NCBI GenBank assembly: GCA_012267425.1
Contig: JAAXGO010000012.1
Span: forward strand, 1-37,755
Reading direction: 5' to 3'
Source: Rhodothermales bacterium
GTDB taxonomy: Bacteria > Bacteroidota > Rhodothermia > Rhodothermales > Bin80
Length of the DNA stretch: 37,755 bases
Each line of letters starts with the position of its first letter. Position 1 is the stretch's first letter. Shown piece by piece: positions 5,421-32,366 of this stretch. Under the pieces are notes generated by a model. That model saw only the letters and a list, made by a program, of their open reading frames with translations. It did no database searches and was not told the origin of the DNA. The position numbers and the translations under genes are program-made.

Positions 5421-7160
5421 ATGAACAGTTTCCGCTGCGCGGTTTTCCTTCGTGCTATCACCGTCGGAACCCTCGCCCTTCTTGTGGCCGTACTGACAGG
5501 CGACCCGGCGTTCGGTGCCCCCCAGGAGGCTGCCGGTGACTATCGGACGCTCCCGTTCGTTAGCAGCCGTGTGGTAATGTGGGTTGTCGCGGAGTTGCAC
5601 CTGATGTTCGCCGCATTTGTGCTCGCGGTTCCGATGTTTGCGCTCATCATCGAGTACATCGGATACAAGACCGGCGACAAGCGCTTCGATGAGCTGGCGC
5701 ATGACTTTACGAAGCTGCTGAGCGTGTCTTTTTCGTTCACGGCCACACTGGGCGCGCTGCTCACGTTTCTGCTCATTGTTCTCTACCCGACTCTGTCGCA
5801 GTATCTCGTCAAGATCTTCAGCTGGACGTTTCTGCCATACGTCTTGCTGTTTTTCCTGGAGGCCATCTTTCTCTACTCCTATTACTACGGATGGGGCAAG
5901 TTTTCGCCGCGCGTCCATTTGTTCTTGGGCCTCATGCTCAACATCGTCGGCACGGCCATCATGTTCATTGCAAACGCGTGGCTCACGTTCATGAACACGC
6001 CTAACGGCATCGACGAGTTGGGCAACTTGACGAGTATCTGGGACGCGATCAACAATTACATCTGGATGCCGATTAACATTCACCGGCTGATTGCCAACAT
6101 GGCTTTCGGCGGCGCGATCGGTGCAGCGTACGGAGCCTACAAGTTTCTGGGCGCCCGCACTATGGAAGAGAAGGCGCACTACGACTGGATGGGCTACATC
6201 GGCAATTTTATCGCCATCTGCGCGTTGCTCCCGCTGCCGTTTGCCGGCTATTGGCTGGGAGTGGAAATCTACGCCTACGACCAGAGCCTGGGCATTACAC
6301 TCATGGGCGGGACGTTTTCCTGGCTCTTCATAATCCAGGCGGTTCTCATCGGCAACCTGTTTTTGGCCGCGAACTACTACCTCTGGTTGAGTATGGGGAG
6401 GATCGAAGGCGCTGAGCGGTACCGAAAGTTTATCAAGTACCTCTTGGCGGTCATCACGCTCTGTTTCATCGTATGGGCGACTCCACATTCTCTGGTGGCG
6501 ACAGTTGAAGAGGCGCGCGCGATGGGTGGGTCGCACCACCCGATACTCAACGTTCTGGGCGTGATGTCGGCCAAGAACACGGCGGTCAACCTGCTCATTC
6601 TCACCACGTATGTCAGTTTCCTGCTGTACCGCCGTGCAAACAAGCAGGCAACGGTCTCATGGGCAAAGGCAGGCAACCTCGTGCAGTTTGGGATTTTTGC
6701 GGTCGTCGTGATCTTCGTCGTATTCCTTGGCGTGTACGGGTACTTCGTCGATGCGCAGACGAGAATCGGGCTGTCACAACCACAGGTGATAAGCGTGCTG
6801 TTTGCGATGGTCGCCGTGACGGTGATCGACATATTTCTTTTCCGAGGTGCCGAAAAGCGCGGAGAAATCGCATGGGGCACGATTCCGAAGCGGGCCCAGT
6901 ATTCGCTCTTCTTCTTGGCCATCACGTTTGCCTGGCTCATGGGCTTAATGGGATACGTCCGGGCGGGTATGCGGCAGCACTGGCACGTATACGGAGTCAT
7001 CCGCGATACATCCGTGGACGCATTCACGCCAACGCTCGGGTATGCCGGTCTTATCGTGTCGATTACGGTCATCATCTTTTTCTTATTTATCGCGATTGTC
7101 TTCTTCCTGTCGGGGCTCTCTGGTAGGAAAAAGTGGGTTCCCAAGATCGCCGAGGCGTAA
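5421..7160 (+). CDS. CydA-like membrane cytochrome (bd-like putative terminal oxidase subunit I)
   Basis: A 579-residue, highly hydrophobic protein with a signal-like N-terminus (AFGA at ~30-33) and about a dozen further membrane helices. Residues ~50-240 follow the cytochrome bd subunit I core. H60 in ELHLMFAAFVLAVP matches the b595-type ligand, FFLEAIF (E147) matches CydA E107, IANAWLTFMNTP matches the VANGWMQNP region, and H221 in INIHRLIANMAFGG matches the b558 ligand histidine. The equivalent of E. coli E99 appears to be proline. The Q-loop with the GRQPW motif is not visible, and there is no cydB next door. The next three genes are c-type cytochromes, so electrons probably come from cytochrome c rather than quinol. 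Similar bd-like proteins have been noted in nitrite-oxidising Nitrospira. Oxygen reduction is inferred, not shown. Confidence 0.75.
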   Translation: MNSFRCAVFLRAITVGTLALLVAVLTGDPAFGAPQEAAGDYRTLPFVSSRVVMWVVAELHLMFAAFVLAVPMFALIIEYIGYKTGDKRFDELAHDFTKLLSVSFSFTATLGALLTFLLIVLYPTLSQYLVKIFSWTFLPYVLLFFLEAIFLYSYYYGWGKFSPRVHLFLGLMLNIVGTAIMFIANAWLTFMNTPNGIDELGNLTSIWDAINNYIWMPINIHRLIANMAFGGAIGAAYGAYKFLGARTMEEKAHYDWMGYIGNFIAICALLPLPFAGYWLGVEIYAYDQSLGITLMGGTFSWLFIIQAVLIGNLFLAANYYLWLSMGRIEGAERYRKFIKYLLAVITLCFIVWATPHSLVATVEEARAMGGSHHPILNVLGVMSAKNTAVNLLILTTYVSFLLYRRANKQATVSWAKAGNLVQFGIFAVVVIFVVFLGVYGYFVDAQTRIGLSQPQVISVLFAMVAVTVIDIFLFRGAEKRGEIAWGTIPKRAQYSLFFLAITFAWLMGLMGYVRAGMRQHWHVYGVIRDTSVDAFTPTLGYAGLIVSITVIIFFLFIAIVFFLSGLSGRKKWVPKIAEA

Positions 7161-7182
7161 CCCATTCCAACGACACACCACC

Positions 7183-7989
7183 GTGAAACACGCGCTACAG
7201 ATTTTTGCCTTCACCATTTTGGTATCGGCCTTCTATTGGTACGTCAGTCTATGGGTACCGCAGAAGCGCACCGAGCCGCCTGAAGACATCATCATCGCGG
7301 CAGACCTCTCGGTCGAGCAAATGGTCGTGATCGGCGAAGAAATCGTGGCGGGCAAGGGCACCTGTCTAACGTGTCACACGATGGGCGAAAGCGGCACGGC
7401 GCTGCGGTTTCCGGATCTCGGTTCGATCGGTGCACTCGCCGGCATGCGCGTTGAGGGGATGAGTGACGTAGACTATCTTGCCGAGTCCCTCTACGACCCG
7501 AATGCTTACATCGTGGAAGGCTTCGTAGCAGGCATGCCCCCGGCAGCGAAGCCACCGGTAGCACTTGCCGACGACGAAATTTTGACGGTCATCGCCTACC
7601 TGCAGTCCCTGGGCGGCACACCGTCTGTGACGATGGATACGGAGTTCGAGTGGCAGGGAGCAGAGCCTGCTGTAGCGGCCACACCGTCCGCAGAACTTGC
7701 AGCCGCTGCGGCAGGCAGCAACCGTGACGCGGAAACTGTCTTTATGACCTACCTCTGTAATACCTGCCACACGCTTGACGGAACGCCGGGCGTGGGACCA
7801 AGTCTGCAGGGAGTCGGAAGCCGTCTCGATCGCGGCGAACTTTACGAATCGCTGATGGACCCGGATGCCACGATAGCCGACGGCTTCACACCGGGTGTGA
7901 TGACGGCAATGCTGACAGCAACCGCGTTTCACGAACAGGTATCTTCTGCCGAGCTGAAGACGTTGGTCGATTACCTGGCATCCCTCTAG
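7183..7989 (+). CDS. Membrane-anchored dihaem cytochrome c
   Basis: The protein has 268 residues, one N-terminal membrane helix (ALQIFAFTILVSAFYWYVSLW) and two periplasmic c-type haem domains, CLTCH at residues 61-65 and CNTCH at 192-196. Each domain has a later Met in a GMPP or GVM context that could be the distal ligand. The ORF track begins inside cydA; I chose the GTG at 7183, 22 bases after the cydA-like stop. The second haem domain (YLCNTCHTLDG...DPDATIADGFTPGVM) closely resembles the cytochrome domain fused to the subunit IV-like protein of the caa3 operon at 25209. Likely role: electron delivery to the CydA-like subunit as part of the same complex. Confidence 0.82.
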   Translation: MKHALQIFAFTILVSAFYWYVSLWVPQKRTEPPEDIIIAADLSVEQMVVIGEEIVAGKGTCLTCHTMGESGTALRFPDLGSIGALAGMRVEGMSDVDYLAESLYDPNAYIVEGFVAGMPPAAKPPVALADDEILTVIAYLQSLGGTPSVTMDTEFEWQGAEPAVAATPSAELAAAAAGSNRDAETVFMTYLCNTCHTLDGTPGVGPSLQGVGSRLDRGELYESLMDPDATIADGFTPGVMTAMLTATAFHEQVSSAELKTLVDYLASL

Positions 7990-8007
7990 CAGTTAGCACC
8001 TGCGGCA

Positions 8008-8835
8008 ATGAACATTCTAGTCCTTCTCGCCATTGTGGTCGGCTTGGTTGCCGTGCAGCTAGGGCTGACGCGATACGTGAAACTCAACCGGATGGCCTGG
8101 ATGGCAATCTGGTGGGTGGCCACGTGGCTGGCGCTGAGTTTCGGCATCAACCCGCCACTTCCGACCTCGATAATTGTCCTGTTCATGGCGATTGTGACTC
8201 TCGCGCTGGCTGCTTATCTGTCGGCAGACTCCGAAGAGCTGAAAGCAGCCGCGGACGTCAGCGTGAGCTTCATGGTGGACCCCAAATACAAGACGGCGTT
8301 GCTTGTAGTGGTCATCCTGATTCCTGCGCTGGTCTCCCTCAAGGTGTATTCGGATATGACGAAGCCGCCACAGCCTCCATCGAGTGGGCGCACGATCCAT
8401 CCGCCACCGCCGGCCACAATCGGTTTCGGAAATGTCACCATGCAGCTCGCGACGGCGAACAACCCGTACAGGGCGCTCGAGCATTCGGACCCCGACGCGT
8501 TCGCGCAGCACGTACAAAACGGGCGCAAGATTTATTTCCAGAATTGCTTCTGGTGTCACGGCGACAATATGCAGGGTGCTGGAATGTTTGCGCACGGATA
8601 CGACCCGATTCCGGCCAACTTCAATGATCCGACGACGATCGCCATGCTGCAGGAGTCGTATCTGTTCTGGCGTGTAGCGAAGGGTGCACCGGGGCTGCCA
8701 CCCGAATCGACACCGTGGGCGTCGGCGATGCCTGCATGGGAGAAATTCCTGACCGAAGAGGAGATCTGGGACGTGATCATCTTCCTCTACGAATACACCG
8801 GCTACGAACCACGCGCGCAGGGCATGCCGCACTGA
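8008..8835 (+). CDS. Four-helix membrane protein with C-terminal monohaem cytochrome c
   Basis: The 275-residue protein has four predicted membrane helices (residues ~2-20, 31-48, 52-70 and 96-113). A Pro-rich linker (HPPPPATIGFG) follows, and then a periplasmic cytochrome c domain with the single haem motif CFWCH at 180-184. A methionine-containing SAMPAWEKFLTEEEIWDVI segment resembles the distal part of class I cytochromes c. It lies 18 bases after the dihaem gene and 14 before the next cytochrome gene, so it is in the same operon. I do not recognise a named family for the membrane half. By position it could replace CydB as the partner of the CydA-like subunit, but that is inference. Confidence 0.78.
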   Translation: MNILVLLAIVVGLVAVQLGLTRYVKLNRMAWMAIWWVATWLALSFGINPPLPTSIIVLFMAIVTLALAAYLSADSEELKAAADVSVSFMVDPKYKTALLVVVILIPALVSLKVYSDMTKPPQPPSSGRTIHPPPPATIGFGNVTMQLATANNPYRALEHSDPDAFAQHVQNGRKIYFQNCFWCHGDNMQGAGMFAHGYDPIPANFNDPTTIAMLQESYLFWRVAKGAPGLPPESTPWASAMPAWEKFLTEEEIWDVIIFLYEYTGYEPRAQGMPH

Positions 8836-8849
8836 CGGGATTGTTAAGT

Positions 8850-10376
8850 ATGTTCCGACTCTTACTTATCGTCGCCACGTTGACACTCGCACAGCCGGGA
8901 CTGGCACAGGAGCCAGACCTTGGCACCGAGGGCCAGCGCGCCGAAGGTCAGGTGATTTACGATGCCAAGTGCGCTCACTGCCACGGCTTTAGTGGCGATG
9001 CCGAGAGCGTGGCTACGCCATTTTTGCGTCCGTCGCCGCGGGATTTTGTGTCCGGCAACTTCAAGTTTCGCTCTACGGCCAGCGGAGAGCTGCCGACCAC
9101 CGAAGACATAGAGCACAGCATCCGCGAAGGCATGCCGTACACGAGTATGCCCGCCTGGAAAGGCATTCTGTCAGAGGCAGAAATCTCAAGTCTGGCCTAC
9201 TACATCAAGTCATTCAACTCTGACTTTGCTGGACCCTATGGCACGCCGGACGTTATCGAGGTGCCCGACGCACCGGACTTCGACGAATCGAATCTGTCAC
9301 GCGGCCGCGAGGTCTTCGATGCAAATCAGTGTGCGGACTGCCACGGACAAAACGGACGCGGTAACGGGGAGTCGGCCACCGAGTTGATGGACGACTGGGG
9401 CTATCCGATCCGTCCGGCGGATATGACGAAGCGCTGGACCTTCCGCGGCGGCTCCACGCGCGAGGATATCTACCGCACCTTCACAACCGGGCTGAACGGT
9501 ACTCCGATGCCGTCTTATCAGCAGACGATCGACGAAGAGGATCGCTGGGCGCTTGTTGACTACGTGTATTCGCTTTCGCGCGACGAGCCGGACTACGGCA
9601 CCGTCGTTACGGCGCAGGGATTACTTGCTCCAATCGATGTCATTCAGGGAGCGGAACTCTTCGAGAATGCTCCTGCGACCTATTTCCCGATCGTGGGTCA
9701 GATCATCGAACCTGGGCGGTCATTCTATCCAGGCGTCAACGGCGTGGAAGTGCGCGCGGTCTACAACCAGCGTGACATTGCCGTGATGTTGTCGTGGAAC
9801 GACATGACTCAGGAAATAACTGGCTCGAACGGTCTCGCAATGGAGGTTCTACCGTTTGATTCTGACGTTCCCAGCACTGCTGATACTGTGTTTTCAGACG
9901 CTGCTGCGGTGCTACTTCCTTCCGCAGCCGTCGAGGGCATAGAGAAGCCGTACTTCATGTTTGGCGACTCTAAACGTCCGATGAGGATCTGGTATACAGA
10001 TCTTGCCACGGACAGTGCGGGCGTATTTACGAGCACGGGGTCGTCGTCGTTTGTCGCGGACGGTGAAGAGATCGAACGCTTTGCGAGCTACGAGGATGGC
10101 GTGTGGACTGTCATTTTCAAGGCCCGGCGGCAGGCAGAGAGCGGATTGTACTTCGAGGAAGCGGCATTTACGCCGATTTCATTCTCCATCTGGGACGGTT
10201 ACAGCCAAGAGCGCGGCAACAAGCGTGGACTATCGGCTTGGTACCACGTGTATCTGGAACCGCTCGAGACCATATCGCCGGTGGGCCCGATGGCAAAATG
10301 GGCGTTCATCGTCATCATTCTGGAGTTGGGCCTGATCGGAACCGTGCGCTATCGCCGGAGGAAGCAGAGAGCGTAG
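8850..10376 (+). CDS. Exported dihaem cytochrome c with ethylbenzene-dehydrogenase-type haem domain
   Basis: The protein has 508 residues. A signal peptide (MFRLLLIVATLTLAQPGLAQ) is followed by two cytochrome c domains (CAHCH at 41-45, CADCH at 161-165). Residues ~255-470 resemble the EB_dh / DMSO-reductase-like haem-b-binding domain found in gamma subunits of periplasmic molybdoenzymes (EVRAVYNQRDIAVMLSWND, MFGDSKRPMRIWY, WTVIFKARR). A C-terminal anchor helix (KWAFIVIILELGLIGTVRY) ends in a basic tail. The ORF track starts at 8715; the ATG at 8850 gives a proper signal peptide. No molybdopterin catalytic subunit is nearby, so this is probably an electron-transfer subunit of the bd-like complex. 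The EB_dh assignment is the less certain part. Confidence 0.78.
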   Translation: MFRLLLIVATLTLAQPGLAQEPDLGTEGQRAEGQVIYDAKCAHCHGFSGDAESVATPFLRPSPRDFVSGNFKFRSTASGELPTTEDIEHSIREGMPYTSMPAWKGILSEAEISSLAYYIKSFNSDFAGPYGTPDVIEVPDAPDFDESNLSRGREVFDANQCADCHGQNGRGNGESATELMDDWGYPIRPADMTKRWTFRGGSTREDIYRTFTTGLNGTPMPSYQQTIDEEDRWALVDYVYSLSRDEPDYGTVVTAQGLLAPIDVIQGAELFENAPATYFPIVGQIIEPGRSFYPGVNGVEVRAVYNQRDIAVMLSWNDMTQEITGSNGLAMEVLPFDSDVPSTADTVFSDAAAVLLPSAAVEGIEKPYFMFGDSKRPMRIWYTDLATDSAGVFTSTGSSSFVADGEEIERFASYEDGVWTVIFKARRQAESGLYFEEAAFTPISFSIWDGYSQERGNKRGLSAWYHVYLEPLETISPVGPMAKWAFIVIILELGLIGTVRYRRRKQRA

Positions 10377-10407
10377 ACGGGTCGAACAGACGTACTGAGA
10401 GAACGAC

Positions 10408-11622
10408 GTGGAGTACCGGCCTTCGCTAATTTCGTGGAACCTCACCAAGCGGTGCAATCTGCGCTGCCCACACTGTTATATGGAGGCGGGGCGCAAGGCG
10501 GACCGCGAGTTGACGACAGATGAGTGTCTGGCTCTTTTGAGTGAAATGGAAGCTCTAGGCACCGAAATGCTTATCCTCACCGGAGGCGAACCGCTTTTGA
10601 GGAAGGATATTTACGCGATTGCGGAGCGTTCGAGCTCTCTCGGTATCTGGGTCGTAATGGGGACCAATGGAGTGCTGATTACGGATCGCGTCGCACGGAG
10701 AATGGTCGACTGTGGCGTCAAGGGCGTCGGAATTAGCATTGATTCGGCCGATCCGGCGCGCCACAACCGGTTCCGGGGAGGCCCTAACGCGTGGGAGTAT
10801 TCCGTGCGGGCTCTCGACATCTGCACGAAGCATGGCTTGGAAGTACTCGTGCAGACAACGGTAATGGAAGAAAACGAGCACGAAATCCCTGAGCTCCTCG
10901 AGTTTGCACGCGACAAGGGTGCCTGGTCGTTCAATCTGTACTTTTTGGTGCAGACTGGGCGCGGCAAGGCCATGACCGAGCTTTCCGCGGTTCAGACCGA
11001 GGCGATGCTCGAGCGGTTGGTTGACGAACAGGATCGATACCGTCCGATGCTCGTGCGTTCGAAATGCGCTCCGCAATTCAAGCGAATTGCCTGGTCGAAA
11101 GGGCTCGGCGGCATGGAAAGCGGGGGCTGCATGGCGGCCACGCAGTACTGCCGGATCACGCCTGACGGTGAAGTCACACCATGCCCATACATGACGGTGT
11201 CCGGCGGAAACGTCCTCGAAATGTCCTTTACAGACATCTGGACAACGTCCCCGGTTTTCCGGAACCTGCGCGACCCCGCTCTACTCAAGGGCCGTTGCGG
11301 CGCCTGTGAATTCAAAGAGCTCTGCGGCGGTTGCCGCTGCCGTGCGTTTGCTCGGACCGGCGATTACCTGGACGAAGATCCGGCCTGCACGTACGAACCG
11401 AAGGGCTTGCATCTCGAGGATGTAGAATGCACGTGGTCGGACGATGCACTGCTCCGGCTCGAGAGGATTCCGATCCGGTTCATTCGTGAAAAAACCCGTA
11501 GTGGCGTCGAGGCCTACGCACGCCGGAAACGTGTCGTAACGATCACGCCGGAGGTGATGACGGGTGCGCTATCTGGAATGGATCGCCCGCGCGCGTTTAC
11601 GATGCCGAAACGCCACGCCTAA
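10408..11622 (+). CDS. Radical SAM/SPASM enzyme with C-terminal PCP_red-like domain
   Basis: The 404-residue protein starts at GTG. The radical SAM [4Fe-4S] motif is CNLRCPHC (C16, C20, C23), followed by ILTGGEPLLR (GGEP motif) and GISIDSADPARHN. A SPASM-type auxiliary-cluster region follows, with C241, C248 and C259 (TPCPYM) and CGACEFKELCGGCRCRA at 297-313. The overall plan is that of NirJ/AhbD-type enzymes, which modify haem precursors, and of PqqE-type peptide modifiers. Residues ~342-390 (TWSDDALLRLERIPIRFIREKTRSGVEAYARRK) match the PCP_red pattern at the end of protochlorophyllide reductase BchB. In this operon the likely job is modification of a tetrapyrrole cofactor, which is inference. 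It is five bases from the ferredoxin gene, its likely electron donor. Confidence 0.85.
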   Translation: MEYRPSLISWNLTKRCNLRCPHCYMEAGRKADRELTTDECLALLSEMEALGTEMLILTGGEPLLRKDIYAIAERSSSLGIWVVMGTNGVLITDRVARRMVDCGVKGVGISIDSADPARHNRFRGGPNAWEYSVRALDICTKHGLEVLVQTTVMEENEHEIPELLEFARDKGAWSFNLYFLVQTGRGKAMTELSAVQTEAMLERLVDEQDRYRPMLVRSKCAPQFKRIAWSKGLGGMESGGCMAATQYCRITPDGEVTPCPYMTVSGGNVLEMSFTDIWTTSPVFRNLRDPALLKGRCGACEFKELCGGCRCRAFARTGDYLDEDPACTYEPKGLHLEDVECTWSDDALLRLERIPIRFIREKTRSGVEAYARRKRVVTITPEVMTGALSGMDRPRAFTMPKRHA

Positions 11623-11627
11623 GCCGT

Positions 11628-11822
11628 ATGCCGTACACGATAACGGACGACTGCACGGCCTGTGACCTTTGCATCGATGTGTGCCCGATCGGTGCGATTG
11701 CGGAGGGCGACCCAATTTATGTCATTGATGACACATGCTGCGAATTCGAGGAATGCCTAGTGATGTGTGACGATAACGCCATCGTACCGAGCGAGGACGT
11801 AGAAGACGCCAAAGGTGGTTGA
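11628..11822 (+). CDS. Small ferredoxin with atypical second cluster motif
   Basis: A 64-residue 2[4Fe-4S]-type ferredoxin, cytoplasmic. The first motif is canonical: CTACDLCIDVCP (C9, C12, C15, C19). The second is unusual: CCEFEECLVMC gives C37, C38, C43 and C47, so the central cysteine expected at 40 is replaced by Phe and a cysteine sits at 38 instead. The second cluster may therefore be 4Fe-4S with shifted ligation, 3Fe-4S, or unstable. The gene sits between the radical SAM gene (five-base gap) and a gene whose GTG overlaps its end by eight bases. It probably supplies electrons to the radical SAM enzyme or to a downstream reductase. Confidence 0.85.
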   Translation: MPYTITDDCTACDLCIDVCPIGAIAEGDPIYVIDDTCCEFEECLVMCDDNAIVPSEDVEDAKGG

Positions 11823-12150
11823 AAACGAAGTCTACTTCCTAAGTTTTCAGGAATTCCGGCAGATGGCGCCGGCGATCCTGGATCTCGAGGTCAAGCGGTT
11901 GGCTGGTCTCATCGACGATGTCAGCGCTGCTGAACGGAACGATCTCGTGTGGGCGCGACACAACGTAATGGAAAGCGTGGCCGCGATTGAACAACTGGAC
12001 AAGGACAGACTGGAAAGCGACTGCGCCCCGCTTCTAGAAGCCGCGATGATTACTATCGGTCTATTGACCGACAGAGTAGACCGTGTAACACTTCAGTACG
12101 TTCTTAACCGGCTCACGTACGTTCGCGAGCGTATACCATATGTCGTATGA
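11815..12150 (+). CDS. Unknown 111-aa helical protein in the bd-like operon
   Basis: I do not recognise this protein. It starts at a GTG overlapping the ferredoxin stop and reads ENEVYFLSFQEFRQMAPAIL, then mostly amphipathic helix (LEVKRLAGLIDDVSAAERND, LVWARHNVMESVAAIEQLDK), with no signal peptide or membrane helix. It has one Cys (ESDCAPLLEA) and two His-poor helical repeats. It is likely a soluble helical-bundle accessory protein of the cofactor or assembly cassette, judged only by operon position. An 82-base gap with a short hairpin separates it from the next gene. Confidence 0.65.
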   Translation: MVENEVYFLSFQEFRQMAPAILDLEVKRLAGLIDDVSAAERNDLVWARHNVMESVAAIEQLDKDRLESDCAPLLEAAMITIGLLTDRVDRVTLQYVLNRLTYVRERIPYVV

Positions 12151-12158
12151 CCACGGCC

Positions 12159-12174
12159 AGGGTCTAAGGACCCT
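12159..12174 (+). other. Short perfect hairpin between operon halves
   Basis: AGGGTC-TAAG-GACCCT forms a six-base-pair perfect stem with a four-base loop in the 82-base gap after the 111-aa gene. There is no T-run after it, so it is not a standard intrinsic terminator. It could be an mRNA processing or stability element within the operon. Confidence 0.35.
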
Positions 12175-12232
12175 CACTCCATACTGCCCAGTTCCTTAAG
12201 CGGTCTGGCATTCTTTCCACAGACTGAGCGTC

Positions 12233-14143
12233 ATGTACAAGAAGATCTTCGTTCCCGTAGACAATTCGGAGCATTCCATCGCCGCTGTCGACCTGGCCGT
12301 TGACTTTGCCAAGCGGTTCGACGCCGATGTAGTGGGGAGTCATGCCTACGCTGCACGCATGCACGACTACCGTTTCAAACAGATGGAATTCACGCTGCCG
12401 GAGGAGTATCTGATCGAGGATCAGATGGAGAAGCAGCGAAAGATCCACGACACGCTCATCACGATGGGGCTCGAGCTGATTTCGGATTCCTACCTGGTAG
12501 TAGCGGACGCGCGATGCAAGGAGGCGGGTGTGCGGTTTACCCCCAAGATGTACGACGGCAAGAACTGGAAAGTGATTGTCAAGGACATCGAAGATAGCGG
12601 CTACGATCTCGTGATAATCGGTGCCTTGGGGCTCGGCGCCGTCAAGGACAGCGTCCTGGGCAGCGTTTGCGAGCGTGTCACGCGTCGGGTTAGAACGGAC
12701 ACGCTCGTCATCAAACATCTGGAGTCAGTCAGTGCTGGTGGCGATGGAACGGCACCGACGGGCAGTATCGTGGTCGGTGTAGACGGCAGCCCCGAGTCGT
12801 TCGCGGGACTTAAGACGGCGCTTTTGCTCGGTCGTGAAACCGGCCGCCAGGTCGAAGCCGTGTCAGTATACGATCCGTATCTGCACTACGCGATGTTCAA
12901 TAGCATCGTCAACGTGTTGACCGAAAAGGCGTCCAAGGTGTTTCGGTTCAAAGAGCAGGAGCAGCTCCACGAAGAAGTGATTGACACGGGGCTGGCGAAG
13001 ATCTACCAGTCGCACCTCGAAGTTGCACGACGTATTGCCGAAGAGGAAGGGGTGGATCTTAAGATCACACTTCTGGACGGCAAGGCCTTCGAGAAGCTCT
13101 TGCAATACGTGCGTCGGGAAGAGCCGTGGTTGTTGGTTCTCGGCCGGATCGGTGTCCACAGCGACAGCGAAATGGACATCGGTAGCAACACGGAGAATCT
13201 GCTGCGAACCGTTTCCTGCAACGTTTTGCTGTCAAGCCAACGATACACGCCGCCGATCGACGTAAGTGCTGAAGAGTCGATGCTCTGGACTGAACCTGCC
13301 ACGCGCATTCTCAATACCGCGCCTGATTTCGCGCGCGGTATTGCACGCACCACAATCCACCGGTGGGCGACGGAACGCGGGCATTCGGTAATAACAAGAG
13401 GGATCGTAGAACAGGCCATGGGAAACATCCTGCCCAGGTCGTCGATGGTCAAAATGGGTATCGTCGCGGCAGATGCGGCGGTAGAGGAAATAGAGGCGGT
13501 GGATTCCGCCACGTACGTGTGCAGCAATTGTGGGTATGCAGCTCGCGGCTTCGAGCCGGTTACATGTGCCGTATGCGGCAAGGACGCAGCAGTCTTCCAT
13601 AAACTCGACAAGGAGACCATCGAGCGTCTCATTCCGCTCGAAGGAGGCATTGAAGAGGAATCAACATTCGACGACGTGAAGCTCAGGTGGTCGAAAGAGG
13701 CCCGTGCCCGTCTCCGCGAGGTTCCGGACGGTTACCAGATGCGCCGCGCAAAGGCTCAGATTGAAAAGCGCGCCCGCGTGCAGCGCGTCCCGATGATCAC
13801 GCTTGACATGGTGAGGGCCGTGGTTGACGACCATGCGGTGGATACGCAGTTCCTTGCCGAGCGCGGGCAGCTCAAAAGAGACGCCGACGGTGTCGAGCGC
13901 CCTGCAGCCTCAAAGCCCGTCATGGAAGACCTCGTGCAAGACGGAGGTTTTCTTTGGACCAAGCGCGCTGTTGCACGCATTGACCGCGTTCCGGAAGGAT
14001 TCATGCGGACGCGGACGAAAGAGCGCGTCGAAGGTGTGGCACGCCAGCGCTCGACGACGCTGATAACGCTCGAGATCACCGAAGAGGGCATCAAGGAAAG
14101 CCTTAAGCTGATGGAGGAGATGATCCAGCAGCAGGCGAGGTAA
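12233..14143 (+). CDS. Tandem universal stress protein fused to rubredoxin-like and three PCP_red-like domains
   Basis: The protein has 636 residues and is cytoplasmic. Residues 1-165 and ~178-335 are two UspA-type alpha/beta domains (KIFVPVDNSEHSIAAVDLA; SIVVGVDGSPESFAGLKTAL). The first keeps a G-x2-G-x9-GS-like nucleotide motif (GALGLGAVKDSVLGSV). Residues ~350-397, 485-535 and 573-622 are three copies of a W-(T/S)-(E/K)-x-A-x-x(I/L)-x-x-(A/V)P-x-(F/Y) unit with R-E/R-A and IT segments, matching PCP_red of BchB. A rubredoxin-like CSNCGYAARGFEPVTCAVCG lies at 430-449. USP domains bind ATP or AMP; the added domains suggest a scaffold or sensor in cofactor handling. I know of no characterised protein with this architecture. 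Confidence 0.82.
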   Translation: MYKKIFVPVDNSEHSIAAVDLAVDFAKRFDADVVGSHAYAARMHDYRFKQMEFTLPEEYLIEDQMEKQRKIHDTLITMGLELISDSYLVVADARCKEAGVRFTPKMYDGKNWKVIVKDIEDSGYDLVIIGALGLGAVKDSVLGSVCERVTRRVRTDTLVIKHLESVSAGGDGTAPTGSIVVGVDGSPESFAGLKTALLLGRETGRQVEAVSVYDPYLHYAMFNSIVNVLTEKASKVFRFKEQEQLHEEVIDTGLAKIYQSHLEVARRIAEEEGVDLKITLLDGKAFEKLLQYVRREEPWLLVLGRIGVHSDSEMDIGSNTENLLRTVSCNVLLSSQRYTPPIDVSAEESMLWTEPATRILNTAPDFARGIARTTIHRWATERGHSVITRGIVEQAMGNILPRSSMVKMGIVAADAAVEEIEAVDSATYVCSNCGYAARGFEPVTCAVCGKDAAVFHKLDKETIERLIPLEGGIEEESTFDDVKLRWSKEARARLREVPDGYQMRRAKAQIEKRARVQRVPMITLDMVRAVVDDHAVDTQFLAERGQLKRDADGVERPAASKPVMEDLVQDGGFLWTKRAVARIDRVPEGFMRTRTKERVEGVARQRSTTLITLEITEEGIKESLKLMEEMIQQQAR

Positions 14144-14146
14144 GTT

Positions 14147-15067
14147 GTGAAGAGGTACCGTGACATTGCCTCCGACGGGGGCTCCGACATCGCACAGCAG
14201 GTGGCTGCTCAGGCGCAGCGAGCATCAGCGCGTCTCGCCCAAGTACACCATGTTGTGGCCGTCATGAGCGGTAAGGGCGGCGTGGGTAAGAGTACGCTGA
14301 CCGTAAACCTGGCAGCGGTACTTGCACGCAAGAGTCATGCTGTCGGAATTCTGGACGGTGACATCAACGGCGGGTCCGTCGCCAAGATGATGGGCGTCCG
14401 TGCTTGGACGCCGAGGGCGACGTCCCAGGGGATGCTGCCGGCCGAAGCGGAGTTTGGCATTCGCGTGATGTCGATCGATCTCTTCCTGCCCCAGGACGCG
14501 ACGCCTGTGCTCTGGCGTGCTCCGAGCCAGGAAGGTGCCTATCACTGGCGCACGATGATGGACGTGGCGGCACTTAGGGAAATGCTCTCGGACACGAAGT
14601 GGGGCGCACTCGACATCCTTTTCATCGATCTGCCTCCGGGCGCGGACAAGCTGCCGAACGCCTCCGACGTCGTCCCGAAGCTGTCCGGGACTGTTGTTGT
14701 AACCGGCCCATCCGACGTGTCGAGGCTTGTGGTCGGGCGCTCGATGACCATGGCACGTGACGTCGTACACACCCCCGTGATCGGGTTGATCGAAAACATG
14801 GGCCCATACACGTGCAGCCGGTGCGGACACGAAGAGGAACTGTTTCCGTCGGGGCATGCCCGCCGACTGGCTGAGGAGCACGACGTCGAGTATCTGGGCT
14901 GCGTGCCGTTCGACCCACGACTTTCCCGTGCCATGGACGACGGCGGACTTTTTGCCACGCGGTTTCCCGACCGCCCGGCTTCCCGTGCACTGAGCAGCGC
15001 TGCCGATCGGGTCGCGGAGTTTTTGGGCCTTTTGCCTCAATCATCAATGAACGGACATACCTCATGA
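14147..15067 (+). CDS. Mrp/NBP35-family P-loop ATPase (Fe-S or cofactor carrier)
   Basis: The 306-residue protein starts at GTG three bases after the upstream stop. The deviant Walker A is SGKGGVGKST (residues 41-50), followed by GILDGDINGGSVAKMMG (switch/Walker A' region) and DILFIDLPPGADKL (Walker B-like). CSRC at 223-226 matches the CPxC bridging-cluster ligand pair of Mrp/ApbC/Nbp35 proteins. Such proteins carry and transfer [4Fe-4S] clusters. A ~30-residue N-terminal extension precedes the ATPase. Its place in a radical SAM/ferredoxin operon suggests it loads clusters or metal onto the cassette's enzymes. Its end overlaps the next ATG (ATGA). Confidence 0.87.
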   Translation: MKRYRDIASDGGSDIAQQVAAQAQRASARLAQVHHVVAVMSGKGGVGKSTLTVNLAAVLARKSHAVGILDGDINGGSVAKMMGVRAWTPRATSQGMLPAEAEFGIRVMSIDLFLPQDATPVLWRAPSQEGAYHWRTMMDVAALREMLSDTKWGALDILFIDLPPGADKLPNASDVVPKLSGTVVVTGPSDVSRLVVGRSMTMARDVVHTPVIGLIENMGPYTCSRCGHEEELFPSGHARRLAEEHDVEYLGCVPFDPRLSRAMDDGGLFATRFPDRPASRALSSAADRVAEFLGLLPQSSMNGHTS

Positions 15068-15546
15068 AATTTCTCTGCGTCCCCTGCGACGAGCCGATGA
15101 AGATTCACCAGGCGCAGGGTCCCGACCGCGGCTCGATGGCCATCGTCTACCGATGTGGCACGTGTGGACACGACATAGCCATGCTGACAAACAGCATGGA
15201 GACGCAGATGGTGCGCTCACTCGGTGTCACTATCGGTGGGCGAAGCGAGCCGGAAGAGCCCATGGATATGCTGCGGTCTTCGCTCGCCGCTGCGCGCTCC
15301 GACGTAGCGACCGAGAAGCGGGCGAGTAGCTCGAAATGCCCCTTTACCGGCGTCGTCGAGGAGGCGTACAGCCAAAAGCCAAGTGAGCTGGTATGGACGG
15401 CAGAGGCGCGAGACCGAATCGGGCGGGTTCCAGACTTCGTGCGCCCCATGGTCAAGAAGGGCGTCGAGGAGTACGCCCGATCGCGCGGGTACGCGGAAAT
15501 CAGTTCCGCGGTGATGGACGAAGCGAAGGGACGTGTCGGGGCGTAG
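15064..15546 (+). CDS. Zinc-ribbon protein with C-terminal PCP_red-like domain
   Basis: The 160-residue protein has two CxxC pairs forming a probable zinc ribbon (CVPC at 5-8, CGTC at 31-34). A low-complexity linker with a KCPFTG motif near 92-97 follows. The C-terminal ~50 residues (VWTAEARDRIGRVPDFVRPM, VKKGVEEYARSRGYAEISSA) are the best match in the window to PCP_red, the C-terminal domain of BchB/ChlB. No nitrogenase-like catalytic domain is present. It is translationally coupled to the Mrp-like gene and is the last gene of the operon. The 3' end overlaps a convergent gene by 47 bases. Confidence 0.8.
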   Translation: MKFLCVPCDEPMKIHQAQGPDRGSMAIVYRCGTCGHDIAMLTNSMETQMVRSLGVTIGGRSEPEEPMDMLRSSLAAARSDVATEKRASSSKCPFTGVVEEAYSQKPSELVWTAEARDRIGRVPDFVRPMVKKGVEEYARSRGYAEISSAVMDEAKGRVGA

Positions 15547-16577: not shown

Positions 16578-17351
16578 ATGCGACTGACTGCACTTTTGGT
16601 TGCCTTTCTGCTGTTGGCCACAGGTTGTGGTGGCGGCGGAGATACGACAGCTCCGGCACCCGAACCGGACGCCGATGAGGGAGGGACCGTGGAAGAGGGC
16701 ACGGCAATGGGAGCGGCCTCGATTACCGGTACCATTTCATTTGCTGGCGATGCGCCGGCAAGAACCCCTGTGCGGATGAAGCCGGAGTGTATGGACGAGC
16801 ACGATTCGACTCCGCTTTCCGAGAGCGCTCTTGTTAGCGAGAGTGGTGGACTGAAGTCTGTCTTCGTTCACGTGACCATGGGTCTGCCTGATGGCTATTC
16901 GTACCCGGCGCCAAGTGAGCCTGCTATTCTTGATCAGGAAGGCTGCCAGTACGTGCCGCATGTCATGGGCGTGCAGGCGGGGCAGACGATCCGCATCGAA
17001 AACAGCGACCCGTTCCAGCATAACATCCACCCGGTTCCCGAAAAAAATCGCGGCTTCAACGAGTCGACTCCGAACGAGGGCGACTACTTGGAAAAGAGAT
17101 TTCTTGTCCCGGAAGTCATGGTTTCGGTCAAGTGCGACGTCCACAGCTGGATGCAGGCGTACATTGGCGTGCTCGATCATCCTTATTTTAGCGTATCGGA
17201 CGCAGACGGTAGCTTCTCAATCGAGGGGCTCCCGGCAGGTGACTACACGATCGATGCTTGGCACGAGGAATTCGGCTCGCAGCAAATGCAGGTGACTGTC
17301 GGAGACGGCGAAGCGGCAACTGCCGACTTTTCTTTCTCGGCTAGCAGCTAG
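16578..17351 (+). CDS. Cupredoxin-type lipoprotein
   Basis: The 257-residue exported lipoprotein has a signal peptide with lipobox LATGC (Cys17), then an acidic linker. A cupredoxin-like domain has candidate type 1 copper ligands: His in FQHNIHP (148/151), then C186, H189 and M192 in CDVHSWM. The C-terminal part (GSFSIEGLPAGDYTIDAWHE) resembles carboxypeptidase-regulatory-like beta domains. AGGAGAG five bases before the ATG is a strong ribosome binding site. The gene sits directly before the A1-type oxidase operon but has its own promoter candidate and terminator. It may be a membrane-tethered electron donor to that oxidase; this is inference. Confidence 0.8.
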   Translation: MRLTALLVAFLLLATGCGGGGDTTAPAPEPDADEGGTVEEGTAMGAASITGTISFAGDAPARTPVRMKPECMDEHDSTPLSESALVSESGGLKSVFVHVTMGLPDGYSYPAPSEPAILDQEGCQYVPHVMGVQAGQTIRIENSDPFQHNIHPVPEKNRGFNESTPNEGDYLEKRFLVPEVMVSVKCDVHSWMQAYIGVLDHPYFSVSDADGSFSIEGLPAGDYTIDAWHEEFGSQQMQVTVGDGEAATADFSFSASS

Positions 17352-17365
17352 GGGCATAGTCGGAG

Positions 17366-17399
17366 GCGCTCGGGACTACGGACCGAGCGCTTCTTTTTT
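17366..17399 (+). terminator. Rho-independent terminator after the cupredoxin gene
   Basis: The stem GCGCTCGG / CCGAGCGC (17366-17373 with 17383-17390) has a nine-base loop and is followed directly by TTCTTTTTT. It lies 15 bases after the stop codon and separates this gene from the oxidase operon that starts at 17437. Confidence 0.85.
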
Positions 17400-17436
17400 G
17401 GCTTGATGCCGCCGAATCAAGATTTGCACGCACAAT

Positions 17437-19209
17437 ATGGCAGAGTCGACCAACGGGGAGGTTGTCCTAACTAACGGGCACCACGAGTCTAATCACTCCG
17501 CTGGGTTTTGGCGGACGTATTGGTTTTCCACCGACCACAAGATGATCGGGCTGCAGTACGGGATCACCGCACTGTTTTTCCTGCTTTTCGGTTTTGGCCT
17601 GATGCTGCTTATGCGGTGGCAGCTCGCTACGCCGGGTGTAGAGATTCCGCTACTGGGGGCGCTCACTCCGGAACTCTACAACCAATTCGGAGCCATGCAC
17701 GGCACCATTATGGTGTTCATGGGCATCGTTCCGCTCGCCGTAGGGGCGTTTGGCAACTACGTCGTTCCGCTGCAGATCGGGGCTGTAGACATGGCCTTCC
17801 CGCGGATCAACATGGCCAGCTATCACTTCTTCTTCTGGGGAGGTGTGGTCATGCTTGCGAGCTTCTTCGTACCGGAAGGAGCAGCGAAGGCAGGCTGGAC
17901 GTCATATCCACCGTTGGCGGACATCGAGACGATGGGCCAGACGATGTGGCTCTTAGGGATGGTTCTTTTGATCACTTCGTCGCTCCTTGGTGCCATCAAT
18001 TTCATTACGACGATCATCCAGCTACGGGCAGACGGAATGACGTTTTTCCGCATGCCATTTTTTGTCTGGGCGCAGTTCATTACGGCGTTCCTTTTGCTCC
18101 TTGCGTTTCCGCCCCTCGAGGCGGCGGCCATTTTGCAGCTTGCTGACAGGCTGCTCGATACGAGTTTTTTCTTGCCGAGTGGTCTCGTGACGGCGGACGG
18201 TCCGCTGGAGGTCTCTGGCGGCGGAAGCCCGCTGCTTTGGCAGCATTTGTTCTGGTTCCTGGCGCATCCGGAGGTGTATGTTCTCATTCTGCCCGCGATG
18301 GGCATCGTTGCCGAAATCATAGCAAACAATACGCGCAAGCCGTTGTGGGGCTACCGCCTCATGGTGTATTCCCTGATCTTCCTCGGCTTCATGTCCTTCA
18401 TCGTGTGGGCACATCACATGTTCATCACGGGCATGGGCACGGCGATTAGCGCCTTCTTCCAGGTTACCACGATGATCATTTCGATTCCTTCGGTGGTCAT
18501 CTTGTCGGCGCTGTTTCTGTCGCTCTGGGGTGCTTCGATGCGATTCTCGGTACCTATGCTGTTTGCGCTGGGCTTTCTGCCCATGTTCGGCATCGGTGGG
18601 CTTACGGGGCTACCGCTCGGCCTTGCGCCGACGGACATTCCGCTTCACGACACGTACTACGTGATCGGCCATTTCCACTACGTTGTGGCGCCCGGGAGCA
18701 TCTTGGCACTGTTTGCCGGAATCTACTATTGGTTTCCTAAGGTGACCGGCCGGGAAATGAATGACACCCTGGGACGGATTCACTTCTGGGGATCGTTAAT
18801 TACCATGAACGGGATCTTCTTCCCGATGCTCATTCAGGGGATGGCGGGTGTTTCCAGGCGCCTTTTTGACGGCGGGTTGGCATATAGTTTTTCCGAGCCG
18901 GTACTCCACTACAACACGTTCATGTCAGTATCTGCATTCGCTTTGGCGATTGTGCAGATACCTTTCATCTGGAACTTCTTCTGGAGCATCCGCAACGGCA
19001 AGGCGGTCGTGAAGGACAATCACTGGGATGCGACTACGCTCGAATGGTCGGCTGCGCCGACGCCTCCGGTGGGTCACGGCAATTTCGTCACCGTTCCGCG
19101 CGTCTATCACGACCCGTACGAATACAATATGCCGGGTGCCGGCAAAGAATTTGTCGCGCAGAACGATCCGCTTTCTGCGCGGTCCATGCCCGAAACTGTA
19201 GAAGTCTGA
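17437..19209 (+). CDS. ctaD: Cytochrome c oxidase subunit I, A1-type, without the K-channel lysine
   Basis: The 590-residue subunit has 12 or more membrane helices. Visible ligands are H88 (MHGTIMVF) and H414 of GHFHYV for the low-spin haem, H412 for the high-spin haem, and CuB ligands H277, H326 and H327 (HPEVY, WAHHMF) with the cross-linked Y281. D118 (GAVDMAFPR) and E279 in HPEVY mark the D-channel and A1 subtype. The usual IPTGIK reads IPSVVI here, so the K-channel lysine is replaced by Ile355. It is the first gene of the order I-III-IV-x-x-II. No ribosome binding site is obvious; translation starts in NNNACAATATGGC context. Confidence 0.93.
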   Translation: MAESTNGEVVLTNGHHESNHSAGFWRTYWFSTDHKMIGLQYGITALFFLLFGFGLMLLMRWQLATPGVEIPLLGALTPELYNQFGAMHGTIMVFMGIVPLAVGAFGNYVVPLQIGAVDMAFPRINMASYHFFFWGGVVMLASFFVPEGAAKAGWTSYPPLADIETMGQTMWLLGMVLLITSSLLGAINFITTIIQLRADGMTFFRMPFFVWAQFITAFLLLLAFPPLEAAAILQLADRLLDTSFFLPSGLVTADGPLEVSGGGSPLLWQHLFWFLAHPEVYVLILPAMGIVAEIIANNTRKPLWGYRLMVYSLIFLGFMSFIVWAHHMFITGMGTAISAFFQVTTMIISIPSVVILSALFLSLWGASMRFSVPMLFALGFLPMFGIGGLTGLPLGLAPTDIPLHDTYYVIGHFHYVVAPGSILALFAGIYYWFPKVTGREMNDTLGRIHFWGSLITMNGIFFPMLIQGMAGVSRRLFDGGLAYSFSEPVLHYNTFMSVSAFALAIVQIPFIWNFFWSIRNGKAVVKDNHWDATTLEWSAAPTPPVGHGNFVTVPRVYHDPYEYNMPGAGKEFVAQNDPLSARSMPETVEV

Positions 19210-19213
19210 CTAC

Positions 19214-19858
19214 ATGGAATTACAGATTCCCTACGAGGTAGTGCCGCGCCGGGACACGGGCGTTAACAATGCCAAGCTCGGCATCTGGCTGTTCCTCGCG
19301 TCTGAAGTAATGCTCTTCGGCGGTCTGTTCGCTGCCTATGTGTTTCTGCGCATGGGTGCAGAGGCCTGGCCTGGAATGATGATTCCGGACACCACGGAAA
19401 TGGCAGCGCGGGCAGATCAGATTCTGAGCGTGCCGCTTGCGACGCTGAACACCTTGGTTCTGATCGCCTCGTCGGTCACAATGGTGATGTCGTGGGCATC
19501 ACTGAAAATGAAGGATCTTGGTAAGTACAAAATCTACATGGGGCTGACGATTGTTCTGGCCTTTGTCTTCCTTGTTGTAAAGTATTTCGAGTACGGGTCC
19601 AAGTTTGGCCACCACCTGTACCCGGAAACGAACATGTTTCTGGCAGTCTACTTCGTGCTCACGGGACTGCACGCGCTTCACGTGACAGGCGGCATCATCG
19701 TAAACGCGTACTTCTGGGGCCCCGGCACAAAGATGTGGACGCAGGGCAATGACCACGATAAAGAACACTTCACTAACCGAGTCGAAGTAGCCGGGCTCTA
19801 TTGGCACTTCGTGGATCTCGTGTGGATCTTCCTTTTTCCGACGATCTACCTCCTATAG
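19214..19858 (+). CDS. ctaE: Cytochrome c oxidase subunit III
   Basis: A 214-residue membrane protein of the COX3 family. Landmarks are KLGIWLFLASEVMLFGGLFAAYV, VKYFEYGSKF and the C-terminal EVAGLYWHFVDLVWIFLFPTIYLL, which carries the family's conserved WHFVDxVWxxLF motif. It is of the short (five-helix) bacterial type. It starts five bases after ctaD and forms one oxidase with it. COX3 binds no metal but supports the D-channel entry and complex stability. Confidence 0.95.
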   Translation: MELQIPYEVVPRRDTGVNNAKLGIWLFLASEVMLFGGLFAAYVFLRMGAEAWPGMMIPDTTEMAARADQILSVPLATLNTLVLIASSVTMVMSWASLKMKDLGKYKIYMGLTIVLAFVFLVVKYFEYGSKFGHHLYPETNMFLAVYFVLTGLHALHVTGGIIVNAYFWGPGTKMWTQGNDHDKEHFTNRVEVAGLYWHFVDLVWIFLFPTIYLL

Positions 19859-19890
19859 TCACGTTTCCAAGCGAAAAGCGAACAGGTTCA

Positions 19891-20226
19891 ATGGCCGAGA
19901 ACATGACGGTGGAAGACATCCGTAAACATGTCCGGGTGTATGTGATGGTTTTCGCAGCGTTGGCTGTACTGACGGTGGTGACCGTTCTGGTGTCCTGGCT
20001 GGACATGACCATAGTGCCGGCTCTCGTCGTGGCGCTCGTGATCGCTCTTGTCAAGGGATCACTTGTCGCCGCGTACTTCATGCACCTGGTCAGCGAAAAG
20101 CAAGTGATCATGTGGGTGCTGCTCGTAACGGCGGCTTTCCTCGTGTGCATGTTCATTCTGTTCGTCGCCGCGCTTGCGGATCAGGAATACGTGTCGTTAC
20201 TCTTCGAGGCGATGCATGTCGCTTAG
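19891..20226 (+). CDS. Cytochrome c oxidase subunit IV-like protein
   Basis: A 111-residue protein with three membrane helices, of the prokaryotic COX4 type: VRVYVMVFAALAVLTVVTVL, then VALVIALVKGSLVAAYFMHLV, which holds the typical K-x-x-LVxxYFMHL signature. The ORF track start at 19801 lies within ctaE; the ATG at 19891 (MAENMTVEDIRKH) fits the family. It is a small accessory subunit of the A1-type oxidase. The next gene overlaps its 3' end. Confidence 0.85.
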   Translation: MAENMTVEDIRKHVRVYVMVFAALAVLTVVTVLVSWLDMTIVPALVVALVIALVKGSLVAAYFMHLVSEKQVIMWVLLVTAAFLVCMFILFVAALADQEYVSLLFEAMHVA

Positions 20227-20422
20227 GGTCTTTCACCTCGTTTTCATCGTCTGCTCGACGCTCTTGGCATTCGGCTTCGGAGTGTGGGGAGTTTACATGC
20301 ACATGGCCTTCGACCGGATCGGGCTATTCCTCACGGGCGTATGCTCGCTTGCAGCCGGGATCGCACTCGTGTTCTACGGGCTGGGTATTGCGAAGAAATT
20401 CAAGGAGCTGCGGCTTAGATAG
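20216..20422 (+). CDS. Small two-helix membrane protein in the oxidase operon
   Basis: 68 residues: MSLRVFHLVFIVCSTLLAFG, then a second helix (IGLFLTGVCSLAAGIALVFYGLGIAKKF). The start I chose overlaps the COX4 stop codon by 11 bases and has GAGG about seven bases upstream. I do not recognise a named family. Position and hydrophobicity suggest an oxidase accessory or assembly protein. Confidence 0.65.
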   Translation: MSLRVFHLVFIVCSTLLAFGFGVWGVYMHMAFDRIGLFLTGVCSLAAGIALVFYGLGIAKKFKELRLR

Positions 20423-20431
20423 AAAGACGTC

Positions 20432-20707
20432 ATGACTTGGGCTCGGAAGGTAGTTTCGGTTCTCGTGCTCATTGTGCTCTCGCCCGCCGCTGCGTTGGCC
20501 TGTGAGCAGTGTCTCGGCATCGGTGGTGCCAACGGGCCCACCATTCGTGCGCTCGTGTTGTCGATGGCGTCATTGCTGGCAATCGTAGGCTTCGTGTGCA
20601 CCGGGATCAGCATGTTCTTCGTGAGGGTGCACCGACGGTCCAAGATGCTCGAGCCGGGTGATTTAGCGGTCAACCAGTACGGTGATCTCCGCCCGAACAC
20701 TCGGTAG
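20432..20707 (+). CDS. Small exported or membrane protein in the oxidase operon
   Basis: 91 residues: a signal-like N-terminus ending SPAAALA, a short exported CEQCLGIGG segment with a CxxC pair, one membrane helix (LVLSMASLLAIVGFVCTGISMFF), and a basic cytoplasmic tail. I do not recognise the family. It lies nine bases after the 68-aa gene and 29 before ctaC. The exposed CxxC next to the CuA-subunit gene could hint at copper handling, but that is speculative. Confidence 0.62.
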   Translation: MTWARKVVSVLVLIVLSPAAALACEQCLGIGGANGPTIRALVLSMASLLAIVGFVCTGISMFFVRVHRRSKMLEPGDLAVNQYGDLRPNTR

Positions 20708-20736
20708 AATTCTCTTCTTCAATCAAGGACCAAGAC

Positions 20737-21672
20737 ATGTTCGATCTGGCCGAATTTATGGGTATGCCGCTGGACGCGTCAGGCCACGGGGCGCCCATCG
20801 ATTCCATGATGGGGTGGGTCCACTGGCTCATGGTGGCGCTATTTGTCATCTGGGCTCCGTTTTTCCTCTACACGCTGTACCGGTTCAGGGCCACGAAGAA
20901 TCCGAAGGCGAGCTATCATGGCGTTAAGAGCAAGTTTTCTTCGTACCTCGAAGGCGGTGTCGTCGTAGCGGAAGGCGTCCTCCTGGTGGGGTTTGCTTTC
21001 CCCATCTGGGGTGATATCAAGAATGATTTTCCGCCGGAAGAGGCGTCGACGGTCGTCAACGTCATTGCAGAGCAGTTTGCCTGGAATATCATCTATCCCG
21101 GTGCCGACGGTGAATTTGGACGCACGACGCTCACCAAGCCGATCGAGATCGATGCTACTGATCCAAGGGGTGCCGACGACATCATTGTAGCCGACGAGCT
21201 ACACGTCGTCAAGGGCAAGCCCGTTATCGTCCATCTGATGTCGCGGGACGTCATTCACAGTTTCGGTCTGCCGAACATGCGCGTAAAGCAGGATCTGATT
21301 CCGGGGCTTACGATTCCGGTTTGGTTCGTACCGGAGATGTCGACGGCGGAGTTTCATCAGGAAATGAAAAAGCGGTTGCCGATTTCTGACGAGCAGCAGC
21401 GTCGCCGCCAATGGCCGCCCTACCGCTGGATTGCGATGGAGGAGGTCGCGGGAGCAGGTGGTGAGGTACTAGTCGGAATGAATCAACGTCTTTCGACGCG
21501 TGTCCTGGATCGGCTGCACGAAGCTGGCGTCGCGGATATATTAGCGGCTCCCGACATGGAAATCAGCTGTGCACAGCTCTGCGGTGGTGGCCACTACAGC
21601 ATGCGGGGAACCGTCATCGTCCACGAGACCGAAGAGGATTTCGACGCGGCATTGCAGACGTACGTGTATTAG
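20737..21672 (+). CDS. ctaC: Cytochrome c oxidase subunit II (CuA), no haem domain, with an insertion
   Basis: A 311-residue protein with two membrane helices (~27-48 and 75-92) followed by a periplasmic CuA domain. CuA ligands are H174 (DVIHSF), C278 and C282 (CAQLCGGGHYSM), H286 and M289. The backbone Glu position of the CuA site is Gln (CAQLC). Between RVKQDLIPG and CAQLC there are about 85 residues, clearly more than usual, including a charged stretch (MKKRLPISDEQQRRR). There is no C-terminal cytochrome c, so electrons must come from a separate carrier. It is the last gene of the A1-type operon. Confidence 0.93.
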   Translation: MFDLAEFMGMPLDASGHGAPIDSMMGWVHWLMVALFVIWAPFFLYTLYRFRATKNPKASYHGVKSKFSSYLEGGVVVAEGVLLVGFAFPIWGDIKNDFPPEEASTVVNVIAEQFAWNIIYPGADGEFGRTTLTKPIEIDATDPRGADDIIVADELHVVKGKPVIVHLMSRDVIHSFGLPNMRVKQDLIPGLTIPVWFVPEMSTAEFHQEMKKRLPISDEQQRRRQWPPYRWIAMEEVAGAGGEVLVGMNQRLSTRVLDRLHEAGVADILAAPDMEISCAQLCGGGHYSMRGTVIVHETEEDFDAALQTYVY

Positions 21673-25913: not shown

Positions 25914-25918
25914 GTCGG

Positions 25919-26581: not shown

Positions 26582-26587
26582 GCGTCG

Positions 26588-29205: not shown

Positions 29206-29208
29206 CGT

Positions 29209-30401: not shown

Positions 30402-30464
30402 CCGGTTTGCGGTTCAGTGTTCGAAGGGCCGATCCGCACAAACCTTGCCCGAGTCGGGCTGCAA

Positions 30465-31748: not shown

Positions 31749-31762
31749 TTGAGCGGGTGATT

Positions 31763-32362: not shown

Positions 32363-32366
32363 GCGC

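Follow-up and report, generated by a model that had tools for sequence, protein, structure and literature searches.

The window analysed here, a 37,755-nucleotide stretch from a Rhodothermales bacterium, contains a block of ten genes on the + strand (5421-15546) separated by gaps of -4 to 82 bases, in which the gene for a radical SAM enzyme is the fifth. The features of this block are:

5421-7160, + strand: CydA-like membrane protein, 579 aa, cytochrome bd subunit I-like, with a Pfam match to residues 49-286 only
7183-7989, + strand: dihaem c-type cytochrome, two CxxCH motifs
8008-8835, + strand: monohaem c-type cytochrome, membrane-anchored
8850-10376, + strand: NxrC-like protein with two CxxCH cytochrome domains, an EB_dh haem b domain and a C-terminal transmembrane segment
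10408-11622, + strand: radical SAM/SPASM/PCP_red protein, GTG start, 404 aa (radical SAM, residues 11-167; SPASM, 241-327; PCP_red, 343-385)
11434-11562, + strand: PCP_red domain of the radical SAM protein, 41.2 bits, over the cut-off
11628-11816, + strand: small 4Fe-4S dicluster-type ferredoxin, 62 aa, starting 5 bases past the radical SAM gene
11815-12150, + strand: conserved protein of 111 aa (orf111) without Pfam or NCBIfam match
12233-14143, + strand: universal-stress-protein (USP) tandem with three PCP_red domains and a rubredoxin-like CxxC...CxxC, 636 aa
14147-15067, + strand: Mrp/ApbC (NUBPL-type) P-loop NTPase, putative Fe-S carrier
15064-15546, + strand: small Cys-rich protein, 160 aa, with N-terminal CxxC pairs and a C-terminal PCP_red domain

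The host genome, in an assembly about 90% complete, encodes exactly five PCP_red domains, all inside this block: one in the radical SAM enzyme, three in the USP protein, which retains 69-78% identity throughout the order, and one in the small protein, whose PDB relatives are the C-terminal domains of BchB/ChlB and Asr4154. The PCP_red domains of these two neighbours (12233-14143 and 15064-15546) did not figure in the original prediction for this locus. The ferredoxin gene, which falls under the usual ORF-size cut, separates orf111 from the radical SAM gene and is conserved in relatives; its product is likely the electron donor of the radical SAM enzyme. Elsewhere in the window are a carboxypeptidase-regulatory/cupredoxin-like protein and a CoxA/C/IV/B oxidase set (16578-21672), located behind the block and found near it in many relatives, a second cytochrome c oxidase set accompanied by genes for alternative complex III and a SCO-like protein (25209-37650, - strand), and, at the window edge, an ORF resembling a type I restriction specificity subunit (466-1560, - strand).

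Domain searches, invariant cysteines and structure modelling all bore out the predicted fusion of a radical SAM enzyme with a full SPASM and a PCP_red domain. Pfam detected Radical_SAM at residues 11-167 (E 6.6e-34), SPASM at residues 241-300 (E 2.1e-10) and PCP_red (PF08369) at residues 343-385 (E 2.5e-09; 37.5 bits, over the gathering score of 32.5). Across 47 relatives, 11 cysteines are invariant, namely the three of the C16-X3-C20-X2-C23 cluster motif and the auxiliary cysteines C220, C241, C259, C297, C300, C306, C309 and C327. Four of the latter (C297/C300/C306/C327) form an exact C-terminal CX2CX5CX20C, a motif known from AhbD and NirJ (PMC3942049, PMC10548856). An AlphaFold model built from the 47-sequence alignment was confident except for the final ten residues (mean pLDDT 92, pTM 0.89; single-sequence prediction gave a pLDDT of only 38.8) and showed PCP_red as a folded helical module at the C-terminus. 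Given this model and the presence of the domain in all 80 loci listed (see below), the fusion is not a product of chance. The top matches in a fold search were SkfB, PqqE and SuiB, which are only general radical SAM/SPASM relatives; NirJ or AhbD structures were absent from the fold and sequence matches listed, so that peptide enzymes would lead that list anyway.

In trees built with PCP_red trimmed off, the radical SAM-PCP_red enzymes formed one clade (99/97), recovered at 99/99 and in 100% of bootstraps once long branches were removed. This clade is sister to AhbD plus TIGR04053 (support of 96/94 for that group, but no more than 82/44 for the join), AhbC/NirJ form a separate clade further out (100/99), and PqqE and MftC, the only two peptide-modifying families sampled (the first tree had three, with GDL), fall outside the tetrapyrrole superclade (99/88). 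NCBIfam scores ranked the haem families first (NirJ2 339 bits, AhbD 302, TIGR04053 272, NirJ 212 and AhbC 187), the best peptide-system or other model reaching 161 bits. The enzyme, originally described as NirJ/AhbD/PqqE-like, hence belongs to the haem-precursor superclade of AhbC/NirJ, AhbD and TIGR04053, apart from PqqE and MftC. When we searched the interval from the radical SAM gene to orf111 for the precursor peptide of a RiPP system, we found the ferredoxin instead, the sole small conserved ORF alongside the enzyme; no precursor peptide was found, and no PqqD-type domain (RRE partner) is encoded by the neighbours of the radical SAM gene. The tree and the missing precursor peptide were outcomes by which the original prediction could have been refuted, and both speak for it.

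A scan covering the genomes of 84,980 species identified at least 80 loci with the fusion, and all 80 loci listed retain the C-terminal PCP_red. They are spread over about ten phyla: Rhodothermota/Bacteroidota, Calditrichota, Myxococcota, Acidobacteriota, Chloroflexota, Marinimicrobia, Gemmatimonadota, Nitrospinota, Nitrospirota and Planctomycetota (an Anammoxibacter), along with one Pseudomonadota record. Closer to the window, the PCP_red set is patchy, being present in 16 of 39 relatives, most of which keep the gene order. The gene is met in three layouts: within a CydA-like block resembling that of the window, among haem genes, or, in Nitrospina, on its own, with neither CydA-like nor hem genes adjoining the copies. 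Two of the layouts merge in a myxococcotal locus (L082) that combines ctaB, hemY, the radical SAM gene with the small PCP_red gene, Mrp, USP, NxrC, cytochromes and the CydA-like gene. In Acidobacteriota such as that of G322, haem genes surround the radical SAM gene, and the CydA-like, USP, Mrp and small PCP_red genes lie together on another contig. One clade member that apparently lacked PCP_red (L218, 863-2169, - strand) proved to be frameshifted, the remainder of its SPASM and its PCP_red being in the next frame; this gene lies immediately behind a USP-PCP_red gene.

The proposal that the enzyme acts on a tetrapyrrole gained support from genes of haem synthesis next to it in several phyla and from a further PCP_red fusion. 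At nine loci, distributed over Myxococcota, Acidobacteriota, Pseudomonadota and Nitrospirota, hemY is no more than about 5 kb away from the radical SAM gene (five tested and identified as NCBIfam protoporphyrinogen oxidase, the others called by tblastn), a proximity expected by chance at <1% of loci by an estimate rather than a computed control. A tenth locus (L087) is weaker, with hemY 8-9 kb away. hemH and hemQ join hemY in L090/L226 and L091, the order in L226 being rSAM-hemQ-hemH-hemY, and ctaB does so in Myxococcota. Moreover, PCP_red is fused N-terminally to HemQ in two Nitrospina genomes and one Nitrospirota genome, as confirmed with Pfam:

L153, 1462-2418, - strand: HemQ with N-terminal PCP_red
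L155, 1462-2409, - strand: HemQ with N-terminal PCP_red
L156, 1159-2115, + strand: HemQ with N-terminal PCP_red

In a fourth genome (G326), PCP_red and HemQ matches share one open frame. Among solved structures, the best relatives of this HemQ portion are coproheme decarboxylases. As PCP_red is also fused to BchB, its partners include three tetrapyrrole enzymes unrelated to one another (BchB, HemQ and the radical SAM enzyme), which suggests a unifying role for this orphan domain; in the literature on PCP_red/PF08369, we found no paper describing such a distribution. Other architectures were encountered as well, including a Kutchimonas denitrificans HemQ that carries a Rieske domain at its C-terminus (L154, 1117-2181, - strand), a flavodoxin-like protein with a C-terminal PCP_red in a Chlorobiota-like genome (L246, 700-1362, identified by eye and HMM), a second PCP_red protein (L245, 23-1105), and two Nitrospirota proteins consisting almost wholly of three PCP_red domains (L105, 3293-4222, - strand; L110, 11579-12580, - strand).

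The radical SAM-PCP_red gene is accompanied by the CydA-like protein well beyond the block itself. Within Rhodothermales, CydA-like proteins were found in 14/14 gene-positive and 0/16 gene-negative genomes, the latter showing only weak matches to ordinary CydA. Because the two genes are linked in this order, Nitrospirota, in which they are mostly on separate contigs, provide the better test, and there CydA-like proteins were detected in 20 of 22 positive genomes (mostly identified from score plus ORF length, PCP_red having been verified in a subset) vs 4 of 58 negative ones (Fisher 6e-13, a p-value that is too small since related genomes are not independent, in a set of mostly MAGs whose absences are uncertain). 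AhbD shows the opposite trend in Nitrospirota. CydA-like matches were missing from three gene-positive genomes, two from Nitrospirota (G334 and G340) and one outside both counted sets (G315), and a few Nitrospirota, mostly MAGs, have the CydA-like protein and no intact radical SAM-PCP_red gene. The suggested link to the CydA-like protein is thus upheld even for unlinked genes, and this near-constant company suggests that the radical SAM enzyme probably prepares the haem of the bd-like complex.

The haem pathways of the hosts bear on which step this might be. Elsewhere in its genome, the window host carries a separate hemC-D-B-Q-E-H-Y-L operon (HemC, D, B and E named by eye; domains of HemQ, HemH, HemY type and HemL type confirmed, the HemQ match being weak but significant), which indicates a coproporphyrin-type route. 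Overall, fusion hosts span coproporphyrin, protoporphyrin and sirohaem pathways. Some hosts of the fusion have HemF (or HemN) but lack HemQ (G029, G314, G315, G320, G321, G322 and G328), and in these coproheme would not be expected to arise; others, an anammox bacterium and Nitrospirota, encode AhbD paralogues as well (G324, G332 and G334). We rejected a simple replacement of HemQ, as HemQ presence fails to separate cassette-positive from cassette-negative relatives, and negative members of the same family share the same HemQ. Coproheme decarboxylation as the exclusive role explains the HemQ-less and AhbD-bearing hosts poorly, and a step on haem itself, or supply dedicated to one complex, explains them better. 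Taken together, the three pathways favour dedicated haem tailoring or supply over ordinary coproheme decarboxylation.

We therefore consider it probable that the enzyme belongs to the haem-precursor side-chain family (AhbC/NirJ/AhbD), as a PCP_red-fused clade of its own, and delivers its product to the adjacent CydA-like/cytochrome c/NxrC-like complex. For such an enzyme, the ferredoxin (11628-11816) would reduce the CX3CX2C cluster, SAM would be cleaved, and the resulting 5'-deoxyadenosyl radical would attack a side chain of an iron-porphyrin, most likely a propionate, with the AhbD-type auxiliary clusters accepting the electron. The PCP_red domain of the enzyme may hold or pass on the tetrapyrrole, the USP fusion and the small Cys-rich PCP_red protein could have a carrier or chaperone role, and Mrp may assist Fe-S cluster loading, before the product goes, as we envisage it, to the neighbouring respiratory complex. 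A more speculative extension, which we put forward only tentatively, is an undescribed haem-tailoring pathway in which the radical SAM-PCP_red enzyme, ferredoxin and PCP_red carriers would yield a chemically new haem for bd-like/NxrC complexes only, with PCP_red as a general tetrapyrrole presenter. If true, this haem would be exclusive to the bd-like/NxrC complexes of nitrite oxidisers, anammox bacteria and other bacteria. Irrespective of this extension, the tight co-occurrence of a haem-type radical SAM enzyme with these complexes points to a cofactor, or a route of its insertion, that is special.

The most serious competitor is the function of AhbD itself, i.e. O2-independent coproheme decarboxylation that yields ordinary haem b at low oxygen in parallel to HemQ, with PCP_red handling the substrate and the CydA-like link reflecting a low-oxygen lifestyle. 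The cysteine set is the same as in AhbD, hemQ-hemH-hemY follow the radical SAM gene in L090/L226 and L091, with L226 showing the expected place, and PCP_red is also found on HemQ, an enzyme of this very reaction; a review likewise places ahbD with hemY/hemH/hemQ or ahbABC (PMC10548856). However, the enzymes form a separate clade, score 302 bits against a cut-off of 500 and have AhbD-invariant residues replaced, the fusion is found in HemF/HemN hosts without HemQ and alongside AhbD paralogues, and cassette-negative relatives manage with the same HemQ. We regard this function as rather unlikely and lean slightly towards a modified haem for the CydA-like complex over plain decarboxylation of coproheme.

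Peptide modification is common among SPASM enzymes, and PCP_red might alternatively be a docking module only, such that the radical SAM enzyme, USP protein, small protein and Mrp would form a DPOR-like machine for ATP-driven electron or cluster delivery, with a protein, e.g. a subunit of the CydA-like complex, as the target of modification. The PCP_red domains of three neighbouring proteins, the Mrp NTPase and the top solved folds (SkfB, PqqE and SuiB) would all fit, but tree and model scores side with the haem enzymes, and the hemY/hemH/ctaB linkage and the HemQ-PCP_red fusion would be left unexplained, making this scenario improbable. Even less probable, to the point of being very hard to sustain, is an enzyme of haem d1 type (NirJ) serving a denitrification cofactor. 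Although NirJ2 is the top NCBIfam name, its 339 bits fall below the cut-off of 500, NirJ and AhbC form their separate clade (100/99) without four cysteines of the window enzyme, and neither nirS, nirF and nirDLGH-like genes nor ahbAB were recognised, by family scans and by eye, in the window or the syntenic loci. On the strength of tree and cysteines, we rejected the NirJ/haem d1 reading.

Among known systems, the enzyme most resembles AhbD (TIGR04545), with which it shares the radical SAM and SPASM domains, identical catalytic and auxiliary cysteines, a sister-clade position and a haem context. It differs from AhbD in its score (301.8 bits, below the curated cut-off), its placement outside the AhbD clade, its PCP_red domain and the lack of adjacent ahbABC, and it can share a genome with AhbD. 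AhbD-invariant positions are replaced in the radical SAM-PCP_red enzymes (E11->N, R24->Y, A85->G and G113->S, and in most of them F249->R and H252->P). NirJ2 (TIGR04055; e.g. on a Paenibacillus plasmid), the best-scoring family name, has the same cysteine set but no PCP_red; in one tree, the Paenibacillus protein attaches basally to the clade, but its long branch makes this placement unsure. NirJ/AhbC are related by superclade, by tetrapyrrole side-chain chemistry and by N11 and Y24, but are devoid of C220, C241, C259, C309 and PCP_red and are linked to nir or ahb genes, and TIGR04053 lacks four of the AhbD-type cysteines which the window enzyme has. PCP_red itself is the same small helical domain as at the C-terminus of BchB/ChlB (PF08369; 2kru, 2l09, 2ynm), where it is part of a protochlorophyllide enzyme, whereas in the window it is fused to a radical SAM enzyme and a USP tandem, and light-independent protochlorophyllide reductase (BchLNB) is not represented by any BchB among the host's five PCP_red copies.

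The neighbouring complex likewise has known counterparts. A CydA type named OR-N/OR-C has been defined (PMC10839748, PMC12342949), and a later survey states that experimental confirmation for bd-like complexes is lacking (PMC10839748). In the sections of two papers that describe the bd-like_3/alt_NxrC_2 cluster, its role is given as undetermined (PMC6606698, PMC3578206), with the function of the bd-like oxidase termed "enigmatic" in the Nitrospina genome paper (PMC3578206). This cluster, from Nitrospira, Nitrospina and anammox bacteria, has the same core as the block in the window, composed of a CydA-like protein, two cytochromes c and an NxrC-like protein; PCP_red proteins are not discussed in those sections (PMC6606698, PMC3578206), whereas in the window they are encoded directly behind that core.
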